Shown here: positions 1,423 through 5,752 of the stretch, piece by piece
Numbering within the stretch: the stretch's first letter is position 1
How the letters are laid out: each line of letters opens with the position of its first letter
Virus record (IMG/VR): IMGVR_UViG_3300034375_005797
Span: 1 to 23,029 of that record
Length of the DNA stretch: 23,029 nt
Origin: a virus
Strand: one strand, 5' to 3'
Translations under genes and position numbers: made by a program
The notes under the pieces: generated by a model
The model's database searches: none
Seen by the model: the letters and a program-made list of their open reading frames with translations, nothing else
What the model was told of the DNA's origin: nothing

Positions 1423-1688
1423 GTAATATACTTGAAAAAGCAAATAGTATAATAAACAAAAGATCTGAGGAAAAAGAAAGGAATTACGGTCCATTTTCTG
1501 AAGGTATGAGAAGAGCTGCACTTATTGCTTCAGGCGCAACCGGTAAAGAGATAACTGCTGAAGACATGTATATGTGTATGGTAGCTTTAAAGCTGTCAAG
1601 AGAATCATATAATCACAAAGAAGATAATTTACTAGATGCAGTTGCATATCTAGGAGCACTTAATAATTTACACGATGAGCAAGGATAA
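1419..1688 (+). CDS. DUF6378-like phage protein
   Basis: An 89-residue protein resembling the small phage family annotated DUF6378. Shared features are an N-terminal helix with an RxxxYG pattern (ERNYGPFSEG), a central helix ending in KLSR (VALKLSRESY) and a C-terminal DNLLDAVAYLGAL segment with paired acidic residues. The pattern of two helices with conserved Asp/Glu recalls MazG-like all-alpha proteins, but no function is established and I do not assign one. I chose ATG 1419, forming an ATGA overlap with the exonuclease stop. An ATG at 1392 in the same frame would add nine residues and a 31-base overlap and looks less likely. The gene overlaps the next by 14 bases. Confidence 0.75.
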   Translation: MSNILEKANSIINKRSEEKERNYGPFSEGMRRAALIASGATGKEITAEDMYMCMVALKLSRESYNHKEDNLLDAVAYLGALNNLHDEQG

Positions 1689-2625
1689 TATTTGCATGAT
1701 CAATTTAATGGGTAAGGTTACTACTAAATTGAATTCACATAATGCTGGTTGGACTTATTGTTTGGCTAGTATTATTAATGCGAGGGTTGATTACGATGTT
1801 GAGTTTGTAAACGACCCTAAACAAATACATATGTATAAAACAGTGGTGATTAATAACGGTATTAATTACAAGGAAAATGTTTGGAACTTCTTCGGCGGAG
1901 TTCAACAGTTAACATTAGATTATTTACATGAGTTAAGTAAATACAAAGGAGATATTTATACATTTAATGAACCTATTGATTTTAAAACTTTACTAAAAAG
2001 AAAAGAGATAACAACTATTCCTAATAAGAAAGTTATATGTGAAACAACTACCAGTAACAAATTAATATTAGGGGATTCACATTCTTTATCTATTTATAAA
2101 AAAGGATGGGGTATTAAAAGATTAGATGGTAAAACATTACATGGTTTTTTAAAAGACCCGTACAAGTATTTTGACAAAGATAAAACTACTGATTTAATTT
2201 TATATTTTGGTAATATTGATATTAGATTTCATTTAATGCGACAGCCAAATCCTGAGTTAGCAGTATATGAATTGTTTGCTAAGCTATGTATGTTTATAGA
2301 AGAAATAACTCCTGAAATTAATGTAACAATTCAAGAGTTGTTACCGATAGAGGATGAATCTAGAAAAATACCTGGATCAGGAAAATATAAAGGTGAATCT
2401 TATTTCGGTAGTAAAGAAGCAAGACAAAACTTAGTTAACTTATTTAATGGTTTAATCAACACTGCTGGCACTGCAAAATATCCTTATAAAGTACAGAAAG
2501 CTTGGTTAACGTATCCATTAGACTTTAATCACATGGAAGCTAGGCAATCAGTTCATGTTAGACCTAGTAGTTATTTACATAAAAAAACATTTATAAATGA
2601 TACAAGAGTTCCAACTTTATTATAA
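1675..2625 (+). CDS. SGNH-hydrolase-like protein
   Basis: A 316-residue protein with two recognisable blocks of the SGNH/GDSL hydrolase fold: ILGDSHS at 131-137 (nucleophile Ser135, preceded by a beta strand) and LYFGNIDIRFH at 176-186, where block III normally carries Gly-x-Asn-Asp. A histidine near the end (H302, in RPSSYLHKK) sits where the catalytic His is expected, but the usual Asp two to three residues before it is not there. Residues 1-128 form an N-terminal part I cannot place. Known SGNH proteins are esterases, acyl- or glycan-modifying enzymes and transferases. Its position directly before the aGPT-PPlase-like and PLP genes suggests a part in the same pathway, possibly handling an acyl or amino-acid group; that is inference. 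There is no signal peptide. Confidence 0.65.
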   Translation: MSKDNICMINLMGKVTTKLNSHNAGWTYCLASIINARVDYDVEFVNDPKQIHMYKTVVINNGINYKENVWNFFGGVQQLTLDYLHELSKYKGDIYTFNEPIDFKTLLKRKEITTIPNKKVICETTTSNKLILGDSHSLSIYKKGWGIKRLDGKTLHGFLKDPYKYFDKDKTTDLILYFGNIDIRFHLMRQPNPELAVYELFAKLCMFIEEITPEINVTIQELLPIEDESRKIPGSGKYKGESYFGSKEARQNLVNLFNGLINTAGTAKYPYKVQKAWLTYPLDFNHMEARQSVHVRPSSYLHKKTFINDTRVPTLL

Positions 2626-3508
2626 AAAAGCAAAGTTAAATCAAGAAAGACTTTATCAAGGTTACGAGTGGACTAAAAAAGATATTGATGATGATTTAAT
2701 TTGGCATGTTCCAATCTACGATGTTGTTAATAGAAGATACGCAGCGTTTAGTAGTTTGTTAGAAGCTATTAGATTAAAAGAAGCAGATCCTAAAGGCAAT
2801 GGCGAATATTTTAAATATGCAGATGTTAATGATTTTGATTTCATGTTGCTATGTTACTTGTTTAGGTTATGTGGTAGTGGGATTAATTATTTTCCAAAGA
2901 CTAATCATCCTTACGGCACTCATGGTTTCGGTAATTTTTGGATAGTCGATAGTTTACTAAACGAAAGGCTAACATTTAATGAATGGATGGAGGATCTACC
3001 TGAAAAAAAGTTTAGTGATAACAAAGGTTATTTACTGCCTATGATTTCTAAAGGATTAAGAAATTTTATATTGGAAGATAGTTATAAATTAGTTAGCTAC
3101 ATACTAGATAACATGTGGGGATTAGAAATATACGAGGTTGTAGATCTAGGTAACGAGTGGTTATTACGAAGAGGATATAAAAGACAAAATTTTGTTCTCT
3201 GTGCTTTCGCAATGGACTTAGCTGAGTATTTCCCTAAAATAATAAGTAGGCATAGTAATGTTTACGTAGGATCTAACGCTAAAAAATGCTTAAAAGAAAT
3301 ATTTCCAAACGAAAAAGGGATTGGAAGTAATTTAAAAGTAACTAATGAATGTCTTGAGAGACTTTGTACTTTAACAGGCAATCACAGTTTTAAATACGAC
3401 ATGGAAGATGTGGCTTGTGATTTTATAAGATATAAGAATAATTTTCAGAGTAAGCATCATATAGAATATAATAACGGGATAAAATATTATAACAGTGTTT
3501 TTAAATAA
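2597..3508 (+). CDS. aGPT-PPlase-like protein (amino acid:DNA transferase-like)
   Basis: A 303-residue, mainly helical protein that I match, from memory of motifs, to the alpha-glutamyl/putrescinyl thymine pyrophosphorylase group (also called amino acid:DNA transferases). These enzymes replace an activated 5-hydroxymethyl group on a DNA pyrimidine with an amino acid or polyamine. Supporting features: an early arginine-rich helix (VVNRRYAAF, 43-51), LLCYLFRLCGSG at 84-95, FVLCAFAMDLAEYFP at 199-213, SRHSNVYVGSNAKKCL at 217-232 and a C-terminal DVACDFIRYK at 271-280, comparable to the family's LCEFDKY motif. No P-loop kinase domain is fused. It overlaps both neighbours (29 and 14 bases), so translation is probably coupled. 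The main alternative is another helix-hairpin-helix DNA-binding protein of unknown role. Confidence 0.55.
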   Translation: MIQEFQLYYKKAKLNQERLYQGYEWTKKDIDDDLIWHVPIYDVVNRRYAAFSSLLEAIRLKEADPKGNGEYFKYADVNDFDFMLLCYLFRLCGSGINYFPKTNHPYGTHGFGNFWIVDSLLNERLTFNEWMEDLPEKKFSDNKGYLLPMISKGLRNFILEDSYKLVSYILDNMWGLEIYEVVDLGNEWLLRRGYKRQNFVLCAFAMDLAEYFPKIISRHSNVYVGSNAKKCLKEIFPNEKGIGSNLKVTNECLERLCTLTGNHSFKYDMEDVACDFIRYKNNFQSKHHIEYNNGIKYYNSVFK

Positions 3509-4388
3509 ACAAAAATATATAGAGAATAAAGATCTAAACTTATTTGGTCTTGATCAATACTTAATGTTGACTGAAGATTTTAAATCATCTTTTGATCCTT
3601 TTGTAGTTAAAGATGTAAAGGGGTTCAATGTTATTGATGAATCTGAATCATGTGAAGTTGGTTATAAAGCAAGATCAGGTGAGTTTTTCATGCAACACTT
3701 AAAGGATATAAAAGTAAATCACGTGGTTTATGTTCAACCTAGAAGAGGTTTTGCAGGTATCTCATTAGCTTGGTTGTGTAAAAAGTATGACATGAAACTT
3801 ACTTTAGTTATGCCAGCTTCTAAAGAAGTAAGTGATCATCAAGCTTTATGTATTGAATTAGGAGCTGAAGCTAAGTTTGCTAGAATAGCAGCTATGCCAA
3901 ATGCTAATAAGATTGCAAAAGAATATGCTGAAAAAGTAAATGCTTTCTTTATACCGTTAGGATTAAATCACCCATTAGTTATTGCAGGAGGAGTAAAAGT
4001 TATCTATGATTATTTTAAAGACAAGGATAAACCTAAAACAATGTGGAGTGTGATAAGTACAGGTGTTTTACAAAGATCATTACAGATAGCTTTGCCAGAT
4101 ACAGAATTTAAAGCAGTAGCAGTTGCTAGAAATATACAACAAGGTGAATTAGGGCGCGCCGAGTTCTACAGTTATCATAAGCCCTTTAACAGTCTATCTG
4201 ATTTAATACCGGATAAATTTGATTGCGAGGATAGTTATGACTCGAAAGGCTGGCACTACATGTGTAAATATGGAAATGAAGGTGATTGGTTTTTTAGTGT
4301 AGCCGGTAACGCTAAGAAGCCATCAATAAATAAAAGTCAAATCAAATCATATAGGGATTGGAATGACTTAAAAGATTTTAAAATATGA
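3495..4388 (+). CDS. PLP-dependent enzyme, fold type II
   Basis: A 297-residue member of the tryptophan synthase beta/cysteine synthase (fold type II) superfamily. K58 in CEVGYKARSG is the likely Schiff-base lysine. YVQPRRGFAGISLAWLCKKY (79-98) matches the Asn-loop/helix region, LTLVMPAS and LELGAEA-type segments follow the small domain, and SVISTGVLQRSLQIALP (185-201) is the phosphate-binding loop region. A YDSKGW motif (248-253) resembles one I recall in phage PLP proteins. The family does beta-replacement, elimination or deamination on amino acids. Next to an aGPT-PPlase-like gene it may modify an amino acid before or after attachment to DNA; that is inference. Start is GTG 3495; no ATG exists before the conserved region without losing the N-terminus. 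Confidence 0.78.
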   Translation: MFLNKQKYIENKDLNLFGLDQYLMLTEDFKSSFDPFVVKDVKGFNVIDESESCEVGYKARSGEFFMQHLKDIKVNHVVYVQPRRGFAGISLAWLCKKYDMKLTLVMPASKEVSDHQALCIELGAEAKFARIAAMPNANKIAKEYAEKVNAFFIPLGLNHPLVIAGGVKVIYDYFKDKDKPKTMWSVISTGVLQRSLQIALPDTEFKAVAVARNIQQGELGRAEFYSYHKPFNSLSDLIPDKFDCEDSYDSKGWHYMCKYGNEGDWFFSVAGNAKKPSINKSQIKSYRDWNDLKDFKI

Positions 4389-5026
4389 TTTACAATAACG
4401 TGACTGAAGCTTTTGAATCTTTATATAATAAGATTGATAAAGTAGAGGAAGGTCCAAATAAAACCAAAGCAATTTATAATACTTGTTTTACGATTAAAGA
4501 CACTAAAGATCTTGTGGTCAAAACACCTTGGAGAAACTTTAAAACAAGCTATGCTGAAAAGGAATGGATTTGGTATGTTTCAGGAAATAGAAATGCTGAA
4601 GAGATAGCTAAGTGTGCCAAAATCTGGTATAATCACATGGATAATAATGGTAATGTTAATTCGAATTATGGATGGCAATGGTGGAGGAATGATCAATATC
4701 GTTATGTAGTAGAAGAATTAAAATATAATAGGTTTTCGAGACGTGCTGTTATTACAATATATGACGGTAAAGAATGGGAGGACTACGAGAAAGATACACC
4801 TTGCACTCTAGCAATACAGTTTTATTTTAAGACTGACCCTAATGTTTTACATATGTCTGTTATTATGAGAAGCAACGATTTATGGTTTGGTTTTTGTAAT
4901 GATGCCTATTGTTTTATGAAATTGCATGAATCAATGTGCGAAGATTTAAATGCAATTCAAGGAGAATACACACATTTCGCGCAAAACTTACATTTATACC
5001 CAAGACATTATGGAAAAAACATTTGA
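4385..5026 (+). CDS. Thymidylate synthase / pyrimidine hydroxymethylase homologue
   Basis: A 213-residue thymidylate synthase-superfamily protein. Landmarks: NYGWQW (94-99), SRRAVI (118-123), the catalytic cysteine in DTPCTLAIQF (C140), the phosphate-binding arginine in MRSNDLWFG (R162) and the nucleotide-contacting H203 and Y205 in NLHLYPRHY. In ungapped register with E. coli ThyA (R166 to N177) the residue at the Asn177 position is D173, although N172 is adjacent. Asp there is characteristic of dCMP hydroxymethylases, Asn of dUMP enzymes. The protein ends just after HYGKNI, without the C-terminal roughly 50 residues that close over the folate in ThyA (264 aa). A hydroxymethylase feeding base modification is my preferred reading. 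It starts in an ATGA overlap with the PLP gene. Confidence 0.82.
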   Translation: MIYNNVTEAFESLYNKIDKVEEGPNKTKAIYNTCFTIKDTKDLVVKTPWRNFKTSYAEKEWIWYVSGNRNAEEIAKCAKIWYNHMDNNGNVNSNYGWQWWRNDQYRYVVEELKYNRFSRRAVITIYDGKEWEDYEKDTPCTLAIQFYFKTDPNVLHMSVIMRSNDLWFGFCNDAYCFMKLHESMCEDLNAIQGEYTHFAQNLHLYPRHYGKNI

Positions 5027-5339
5027 ATTAATTAGACAATGGGCTAAAGAAAGAAGCCTTTATGAAAAAGGAAACTCACATACACAATATGTAAAGTTTC
5101 AAGAAGAAGCTGGTGAATTAGCTAAAGCTTTATTAAAAAAAGATAGAGATGAAATAATAGACTCAATTGGAGATATTGTAGTTGTATTGACTAACCTTGC
5201 TCATATGGAGGGGTTATCAATTGAGGATTGTATTGTTACAGCTTACTTAGAAATAAGAAATAGAAAAGGTAACATGATGAATGGTACTTTTGTAAAACAA
5301 GAAAGAAATACAGACCACATAATATCAGGAACAGAATGA
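5010..5339 (+). CDS. MazG-like NTP pyrophosphohydrolase
   Basis: A 109-residue single-domain member of the all-alpha NTP pyrophosphohydrolase superfamily. The magnesium-binding pattern is clear: KFQEEAGELAKA at 29-40 (E32, E33, E36) and DEIIDSIGDIVVVL at 47-60 (E48, D51, D55). Such enzymes hydrolyse dNTPs to dNMP and pyrophosphate; phage versions act on dUTP, dCTP or other nucleotides. Next to a pyrimidine hydroxymethylase homologue it could both supply dNMP substrate and drain the unmodified dNTP, as T4 gp56 does for dCTP; that is inference by analogy. I chose ATG 5010, which overlaps the preceding gene by 17 bases. An in-frame ATG at 4950 would add 20 residues lying wholly within the synthase gene and looks wrong. 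Confidence 0.82.
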   Translation: MEKTFELIRQWAKERSLYEKGNSHTQYVKFQEEAGELAKALLKKDRDEIIDSIGDIVVVLTNLAHMEGLSIEDCIVTAYLEIRNRKGNMMNGTFVKQERNTDHIISGTE

Positions 5340-5752
5340 GAAAATATATAGCAAAAATAAGAATACCGGAAAACTTAGATCACCAGTCAGTAGGTTATAT
5401 TGGTGAAAGAATATTTAAACTATGGTTTAATAGAGTTTATAATGATGAGCAATTATTTAAACAAAAAGCTGATCGTGAATATGAACAAATTGATTTTTCA
5501 GACGAGAAAGGATATACATACCAGGTTAAAACAACTAGCAAGAAAAGTTATACGTTTAATTGTCCATTAGATAAAATAGATAATCATTTAAATGCTTATT
5601 ATTATGTATTTATACAATTAAAAGACAATTATGCTTATATAGAACCATTACTAACCAGGGAGGACATTTTAGATAATATTAAAAAGTCTTTTATAAATGA
5701 CACGTGCTATGTTAAAGCAAGAGACCTCCAACAACAGGAGATCACAATATAA
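5336..5752 (+). CDS. Possible PD-(D/E)XK-fold protein
   Basis: A 138-residue protein whose layout suggests a restriction endonuclease-like fold. An N-terminal helix carries a conserved-looking Glu (GYIGERIFKLWF, E24), followed by EQIDF (D53) on a strand and YQVKTTSKK (Q63, K65) on the next strand. The usual motif is D...(D/E)xK; here Gln replaces the acidic residue, a change seen in some active members of the superfamily (Qxk variants). Alternating strands and helices after this also fit. It begins in an ATGA overlap with the MazG-like gene, so it belongs to the same operon. A nuclease or single-strand DNA processing role is possible, but I have no family match. The similarity rests on four residues and should be treated as tentative. 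Confidence 0.6.
   Translation: MRKYIAKIRIPENLDHQSVGYIGERIFKLWFNRVYNDEQLFKQKADREYEQIDFSDEKGYTYQVKTTSKKSYTFNCPLDKIDNHLNAYYYVFIQLKDNYAYIEPLLTREDILDNIKKSFINDTCYVKARDLQQQEITI

Follow-up and report, generated by a model that had tools for sequence, protein, structure and literature searches.

Which base does a phage modify, and by what chemistry, when one cluster of overlapping genes encodes an SGNH-like protein, a helical protein, a fold-type II PLP enzyme, a thymidylate synthase (TS) homologue and a MazG-like pyrophosphohydrolase? Such a cluster lies in the 23,029-nucleotide viral DNA IMGVR_UViG_3300034375_005797, the whole of which was analysed here (the window). The first-pass annotation had suggested that a hydroxymethyl-pyrimidine is made at the nucleotide level and then decorated by an unusual set of enzymes, a proposal that our analysis supports. 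The locus is probably a cytosine hypermodification cassette that starts from hydroxymethylated cytosine (hmC), with a combination of putative decorating enzymes that is not known from other systems.

A conserved cassette of overlapping genes

The five overlapping reading frames that had been proposed were recovered on the plus strand (1675-2625, 2597-3508, 3495-4388, 4385-5026 and 4950-5339, encoding P3 to P7) and are under purifying selection, with dN/dS values of 0.05-0.15 against relatives. The same gene order is seen in the majority of some 70 non-redundant phage loci, where a further gene stands in front. This usual first cassette gene (1392-1688, + strand) encodes P2, a small helical DUF6378 protein (PF19905, 1.6e-13) that matched only designed repeat proteins in the PDB (E 0.009); the cluster therefore comprises the five genes originally delimited and the DUF6378 gene as well. 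P3 lies no more than 300 bp behind P2 in 52 of 60 non-redundant loci and is itself followed by P4 within that distance in 52 of 53, P4 precedes P5 in 56 of 65, and P7 lies within 300 bp behind P6 in 33 of 40 loci. Given the dN/dS values and the recurrent P3-P4 and P4-P5 adjacency, the five-gene arrangement is not a matter of chance. The cassette turned up commonly in the searched contigs of uncultured phages, and its carriers range from phages of about 34 kb to contigs of 182 kb; in three fragmentary contigs with the P2-P5 block no TS homologue was found, which speaks against the cytosine reading.

The hydroxymethylase points to cytosine

P6 (4385-5026, + strand) is a predicted dCMP 5-hydroxymethylase. 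It matches Thymidylat_synt (PF00303, 1.5e-23), its nearest solved structure is the T4 dCMP hydroxymethylase (6e-16), and the active-site residues E60, C140 (the nucleophile position), R162, S163, D165, H203 and Y205 are invariant in the alignment. The specificity residue, corresponding to E. coli TS position 177, is Asp173 (4901-4903). Asp occupies this position in 143/143 readable cassette relatives and in gp42 of phage 44RR as well, and Asn occupies it in the five M6-type dUMP enzymes used as controls; the same Asp/Asn criterion has served to distinguish dCMP-type from dUMP-type enzymes (PMC8670742, PMC6400193). Judged from these residues, P6 is a dCMP hydroxymethylase of the T4 gp42 type, and because of the dCMP-type Asp the modified base is most likely cytosine. 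The comparison with thymine pathways made at first is not supported by this result.

P7 (4950-5339, + strand; PF03819, 8.4e-7; phrog_1992, 2e-37) is a MazG-like nucleotide pyrophosphohydrolase, as had been annotated, and the presumed dCTP-lowering, dCMP-supplying enzyme. Its start is more likely at 5010, as in the relative G012.

A glucosyltransferase N-domain fused to an SGNH domain

P3 (1675-2625, + strand) had no Pfam match of its own, and among its 27 relatives PF09198 was matched in five and PF00657 in five. Its N-terminal region (about residues 1-115, 1675-2019, + strand), which carries an NFFGG motif and in many relatives also an Asp at, or close to, the position of BGT Asp100, aligned with residues 1-97 of the T4 beta-glucosyltransferase (BGT) at 92% and E 6e-7 in hhalign, the next unrelated control reaching half that score. 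Foldseek matched the AlphaFold model to SGNH hydrolases (prob 1.00, E 1e-4), confirming the SGNH-like identity assigned at first, and to T4 BGT 1qkj (prob 0.96). In the SGNH domain (residues 128-302, 2056-2580, + strand) Ser135 (GDSH), Gly152, Asn180 (GNID) and His294 are invariant in the 27 relatives. Since the C-terminal UDP-glucose-binding domain of BGT is replaced by the SGNH domain, P3 is not classed as a glucosyltransferase; it is a candidate hmC-DNA-directed acyltransferase or esterase. As the first-pass annotation suspected for its SGNH-like member, this fusion is a new element of such clusters. P3 is further fused to P4 in three loci (L152, L154 and L168), and with just two matches in cellular genomes it is essentially viral.

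P3 in cultured phages

P3 also occurs in the Aeromonas phages 44RR, 31 and 25, in which a dCMP hydroxymethylase gene has long been known and which are without a known glucosyltransferase homologue (PMC2993671). The two genes go together here as in the cassette: each of the 40 Aeromonas/Stenotrophomonas phage records that contain P3 has a dCMP hydroxymethylase too. Unlike in the cassette, P3 is fused to a different C-terminal region in 44RR and 31. In 44RR this region weakly matches HMUDK_hel; comparing P4 with the 44RR fusion protein by BLASTP gave no match, nor did a direct tblastn search of cultured phages with P4. 44RR and PTm1, both with P3, yielded no profile match of the P4 or P5 type, and in phage 25 neither type was matched by the genes on either side of P3, so P3 does not depend on P4 and P5. 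PTm1 also has a second TS homologue. P3 is a strong candidate for the hmC-decorating enzyme of phages 44RR, 31 and 25, which makes the question testable in cultured phages.

Phage 25-type genomes differ from the cassette in another respect: a putative glycosyltransferase and a UDP-galactopyranose mutase (UGM) lie directly upstream of P3, and hence P3 could act on a sugar. If it is an O-acyltransferase or acetylesterase working on an hmC-linked sugar, the cassette would yield acylated glycosyl-hmC; P4 would assist by binding DNA, and P5 would produce the donor. Among the best SGNH structural matches of P3 are sialate O-acetylesterases and a carbohydrate esterase, and a sodium:solute symporter annotated for galactose is encoded just upstream of P3 in 44RR. 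However, neither the window cassette nor the surroundings of the inspected large-phage cassettes nor G003, a near-complete and syntenic relative, showed a recognisable glycosyltransferase, and the constant PLP enzyme would be left unexplained. We therefore regard modification of a sugar as unlikely.

The helical protein and the PLP enzyme

P4 (2597-3508, + strand), the partner of P3, is an all-helical protein with GSGINY-like and ED..C motifs (AF2 pLDDT 90.7) and had no Pfam match. Proteins of the aGPT-PPlase/HMUDK-helical kind were among the best viral-structure matches of its AlphaFold model (Foldseek, BFVD), with prob 0.97-1.00 but E 0.02-0.1 and TM 0.45-0.57, and two P4-like viral proteins in BFVD are named 'Amino acid:DNA transferase domain-containing'. 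The modelled fold thus appears to resemble the aGPT-PPlase/5-hmdU-kinase-helical superfamily. PF18724 and PF18723 were matched in none of the P4-family members scanned (22 and 28 members), hhalign comparison with M6-type amino acid:DNA transferases (ADDTs) stayed within noise, the P4 profile not rising above controls, and so did comparison with HMUDK_hel/aGPT-PPlase1 (PF18723). No solved structure matched P4, and the transferase structures 8z2m and 25qc were not among its Foldseek PDB matches. Classing P4 as an ADDT was thus rejected on HMM, profile-profile and PDB fold searches, and a distant fold relation is kept: the aGPT-PPlase-like label given to P4 earlier applies to the predicted fold and not to a transferase assignment. 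The partner P-loop kinase domain that would go with P4 as an HMUDK_hel protein was not found in the window, in G003 or around the large-phage cassettes.

P5 (3495-4388, + strand) is a fold-type II PLP (PALP) enzyme, as annotated (PF00291, 2.5e-10), and its match to PHROG 7093 (phrog_7093, 2.2e-21), the 'threonine dehydratase' family to which M6 gp52 is also annotated, places it by sequence in the gp52 family. K58 and R60 are conserved, Lys58 being the likely Schiff-base lysine, and the phosphate-loop and Asn motifs differ by eye from the canonical form. In the PDB its fold-II relatives are beta-replacement enzymes, namely cysteine synthases and cystathionine beta-synthases. The first-pass view that a fold II PLP enzyme falls outside the described pathways has to be corrected: M6 gp52 is a PALP-fold enzyme adjoining the amino acid:DNA transferase gp51, and an M6-like cassette lists a PLP gene (PMC9476957).

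The beta-replacement relatives, together with the missing kinase, would suit a direct substitution in which a PLP-bound aminoacrylate or carbanion of P5 couples to hmC, assisted by P3 and P4, leaving cytosine with an amino acid attached through an ether or carbon link. Yet the cassette of gp52, which is from the same family as P5, also contains a transferase and a kinase, and we consider this route quite improbable.

Membership of P5 in the M6 PLP family and the P4 fold could also speak for a 5-hmdU-derived thymine hypermodification as in M6 and ViI, with P4 as the amino acid:DNA transferase and the kinase encoded elsewhere. Against this stand the Asp instead of Asn in all P6 relatives, the lack of transferase or kinase-helical profile matches in P4, and the absence of HMUDK_hel matches from seven cassette contigs of other phages. 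As first reported, the window has no P-loop base kinase; extending the search beyond it, none was found in G003 or among the genes around the large-phage cassettes. With a hydroxymethylase of the dCMP type, no 5-hmdU DNA kinase and no recognisable ADDT, the locus was not classed as a 5-hmdU-derived thymidine system, and modification of thymine is very unlikely.

A proposed route to a modified cytosine

The hmC cassette is supported by the dCMP-type Asp, the BGT-related N-domain and SGNH catalytic residues of P3, the adjacency or fusion of P3 and P4, the P4 fold, the M6-family P5 and the company of MazG and P6. In the pathway that we propose, P7, perhaps with P2, would lower dCTP and supply dCMP, which P6 would convert to 5-hydroxymethyl-dCMP. 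Host enzymes would bring this nucleotide into the dCTP pool and DNA; neither a polymerase nor a nucleotide kinase gene is seen in the near-complete relative. We infer that P3 and P4 then act jointly on hmC in DNA after replication. The BGT-like N-domain of P3 would recognise hmC, and its SGNH domain would acylate the 5-hydroxymethyl group or de-acylate a group placed there, P3 standing in for the P-loop kinase of the thymine pathways. P4 may bind the flipped base or help to install an amino-acid-type group, and P5 may tailor or supply the amino-acid-derived group. The division of labour, the chemistry and the final base are likewise proposed by inference.

We give slightly less than even weight to a widespread kinase-free route to acyl- or amino-acid-derived hmC, in which the glucosyltransferase-N/SGNH protein replaces the base kinase and acts with helical and PLP partners to form an undescribed base. 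Acyl or amino-acid chemistry on hmC, taken alone, is somewhat more doubtful, although kinase-free decoration of this kind is the outcome that we favour. If correct, the proposal would carry base hypermodification of the PLP/helical-protein type over from thymine to cytosine, show that a base can be decorated with no base kinase and add a glucosyltransferase-SGNH chimera to the DNA-modifying enzymes. As the cassette is so common in the contigs searched, the base could also have consequences for restriction, for CRISPR targeting and for the sequencing of DNA from environmental phages.

Comparison with known systems

The M6 thymidine cassette (gp51 ADDT, gp52 PLP enzyme, gp53 radical SAM enzyme, gp54/55 kinase and gp58 hydroxymethylase; product 5-aminoethyl-dU) resembles the window in its compactness, its TS-family hydroxymethylase and its fold-II PLP enzyme, which belongs to the P5 family and adjoins a helical superfamily protein; the neighbour of P5 is also helical and may be of that superfamily. 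In contrast, the hydroxymethylase of the window is of the dCMP type, a kinase, a radical SAM enzyme and a recognisable ADDT are missing, and the BGT-N/SGNH fusion, DUF6378 and MazG are added. The T4 hmC system (gp42, the gp56 dCTPase and alpha/beta-glucosyltransferases) likewise combines a dCMP hydroxymethylase with a nucleotide pyrophosphatase, and the P3 N-domain is homologous to that of its BGT; in the window the UDP-glucose-binding half is exchanged for an SGNH domain, helical and PLP enzymes are added and no gp1-like kinase was found. The hmC carbamoyltransferase cluster (5cmdC, found by MetaGPA; PMC8670742) resembles the window in its dCMP-type TS homologue, phosphoribosyl-ATP-pyrophosphohydrolase/MazG-type neighbours and an hmC-decorating enzyme, the carbamoyltransferase being replaced in the window by the SGNH, helical and PLP enzymes. 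Finally, the 5-carboxymethylcytosine-glycine system (CmoA/CmoX/CmoY; PMC12783734) differs from the window in that its base is built after replication by a homologue of methyltransferases together with an ATP-dependent ligase, and not by way of a nucleotide hydroxymethylase, but it is an amino-acid-bearing cytosine hypermodification in phages, as we propose for the window.

Results and discussion

The window is an IMG/VR virus record of 23,029 bases. The first-pass annotation had claimed five overlapping genes, and open reading frames lie at exactly the positions it gave, overlapping head to tail: P3 (1675-2625) and P4 (2597-3508), both lacking a Pfam match, P5 (3495-4388, PALP), P6 (4385-5026, thymidylate synthase) and P7 (4950-5339, MazG). 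They are preceded by a DUF6378 gene, P2 (1392-1688), and dN/dS between the window and its relatives is 0.05-0.15 for all five. IMG/VR scans returned 216 relatives of P3 and 348 of P5, of which the best 80 each were kept, a sample biased to nearer relatives. Over 186 sequences the commonest architecture was P2-P3-P4-P5-P6-P7. Among 72 non-redundant loci, counted where there was room for the next gene, P4 followed P3 in 52 of 53, P5 followed P4 in 56 of 65, P6 followed P5 in 33 of 53 (with P6 within 8 kb in 13 more) and P7 followed P6 in 33 of 40. The P2-P3-P4-P5 block is also held by contigs of 126-182 kb, often with two helical genes, P4a (~400 aa) and its paralogue P4b (hhalign 91%, E 9e-7), and P3 and P4 are fused into a single protein at three loci (L152, L154, L168). 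One large-phage cassette carries a CitG-like protein (PF01874, 8.2e-11) between P3 and P4 (L178:4843-5640). P8 (window 5336-5752, 138 aa), PD-(D/E)XK nuclease-like by eye and with a weak SMEK match, is kept beside the cassette in 63 loci.

The close relatives of the window form one syntenic family with genomes of ~34 kb, and the order P3 to P7 is unchanged in six long relatives. The 37,025-base contig G003 repeats one set of genes at both ends and thus shows a nearly complete genome; the end copies are ~95% identical, so that G003 may join two strains. Its products include a RepA-like AAA ATPase as well as an HNH protein of NinG type. The possibility of a base kinase elsewhere in the genome had been raised earlier, and among the G003 proteins we found no base kinase, nucleotide kinase or DNA polymerase. 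A second helical gene of P4b type (301 aa), also found in large-phage cassettes, adjoins a metallophosphoesterase gene in G003 (L036:2475-3380) and contig G010 (L011:6433-7338) and is lacking in the window.

P3 is a chimera of an N-terminal part of T4 beta-glucosyltransferase (BGT) type and an SGNH domain. Its AlphaFold model (pLDDT 91.6) matched SGNH esterases with probability 1.00 (E 1e-4); the match to BGT (1qkj, probability 0.96) was weaker. PF09198 (BGT; best 2.2e-4) and PF00657 (GDSL) were each matched by 5 of 27 relatives. The N-terminal part aligned with BGT residues 1-97 (hhalign 92%, E 6e-7), sharing an N-F-F-G-G motif, and scored 54 against 26 for the best unrelated sequence among 112 control ORFs. 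The Ser, Gly, Asn and His residues of the SGNH domain do not vary within the family. Several lineages have an Asp at or near the position of BGT Asp100, which we take to be the catalytic base of BGT; equivalence of the two is a suggestion only.

The closest solved structure to P6 is T4 dCMP hydroxymethylase (6e-16). The position equivalent to residue 177 of E. coli thymidylate synthase is reported to decide between dCMP and dUMP, with Asp marking modified-cytosine contigs (PMC8670742, PMC6400193). Each of the 143 relatives whose motif could be read carries Asp there; Asn takes this place in the hydroxymethylases from M6, Acinetobacter SH-Ab 15599, Ab18, RHph_I65 and P26218. Judged by this residue P6 is of dCMP type, and hence the modified base should be cytosine. 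At L007, L008, L015 and similar loci P6 is only ~47% identical beside a P4 of 85-87% identity; apparently the hydroxymethylase is swapped separately from its neighbours. Genes resembling dCMP deaminase (motif read by eye) adjoin P6 at L103:3744-4139, L118:12222-12689, L122:12983-13387 and L113:12345-12839.

The aGPT-PPlase-like nature proposed for P4 survives only as a distant likeness of predicted fold. Its good model (pLDDT 90.7) had no significant fold match in the PDB, solved glycinyltransferases included, and neither Pfam nor sequence profile comparison supported a relation to aGPT-PPlase or the kinase helical domain. In a viral structure library the top matches were an orthologue and then P4-like proteins, two of them named amino acid:DNA transferase (ADDT), followed by proteins labelled either as aGPT-PPlase1 or as the helical domain of 5-hmdU DNA kinase (probability 0.97-1.00, TM 0.45-0.57, E 0.02-0.1). 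From the model we read P4 as a distant fold relative, with the kinase-helical clade rather than the transferase as its nearer neighbour.

P5 matched PHROG 7093, "threonine dehydratase" (2.2e-21). A fold II PLP enzyme had been thought to lie outside the described pathways, which does not hold: gp52 of M6, located between transferase gp51 and radical SAM gp53, has the PALP fold and the same annotation, and the M6-like cassette includes a PLP enzyme (PMC9476957). P5 and gp52 matched weakly in single-sequence BLASTP and share an F-x-C-...-Y-D-x-K-x-W motif. Other relatives of P5 are fused or adjacent to ParB and methyltransferase domains: in Erythrobacter phage ZS04 a P5-like PLP domain is inserted in a ParB-methyltransferase protein (L018:2326-4764), and in Microcystis phage Mae-JY30 the parts are separate neighbouring genes (L019:6390-8708), possibly a second PLP-linked DNA-modification system. 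A further unusual modification cluster, in Gordonia phage MossRose, lines up ParB-like, FAD oxidoreductase, ADDT-relative and adenylate-kinase genes (L196:1-3926) and lacks a thymidylate synthase in the vicinity.

P3 is carried by 43 INPHARED records of cultured phages, from Aeromonas (38), Stenotrophomonas (2) and Tenacibaculum (3). All 40 Aeromonas and Stenotrophomonas records turn up in the top hits for the 44RR dCMP hydroxymethylase, and the other hits at ~80% identity or more are short fragments. Phages 44RR, 31 and 25 have gene 42 and lack a glucosyltransferase homologue (PMC2993671). P3 of the 44RR type is extended by a fused C-terminal region that matches HMUDK_hel below threshold; in 44RR itself a sodium:solute symporter gene (L020:4375-5898), unusual for a lytic phage, lies immediately upstream. 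In the 25 type P3 is directly downstream of UDP-galactopyranose mutase and a protein with relatives annotated as glycosyltransferase (L215:1276-3457 in phage 25), which suggests galactofuranose-type decoration of 5-hydroxymethylcytosine (hmC) in this group. In Aeromonas phage PS49, not among the P3 carriers, the thymidylate synthase homologue adjoins a BGT homologue and a TET-associated-type glycosyltransferase. In the main rival to direct decoration by P3, the substrate of P3 would be a sugar attached to hmC.

Most likely, the cassette would make hmC at the nucleotide level and decorate it in DNA. The P-loop and helical parts of 5-hmdU kinase travel as a unit in several phages, and since P3 and P4 do likewise, we propose that P3 would replace the kinase. 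Its N-terminal domain would find hmC and its SGNH serine would transfer (or remove) an acyl group, after which P5 would tailor or supply an amino-acid-derived group.

Phage DNA with hmC, glucosylated or carbamoylated, is known, as are thymine hypermodifications involving PLP and helical enzymes. Arabinosylation of hmC is known from RB69 (PMC6024577). As far as the literature searched shows, the gene combination, the BGT-SGNH chimera and the link of this chimera to hmC are undescribed.
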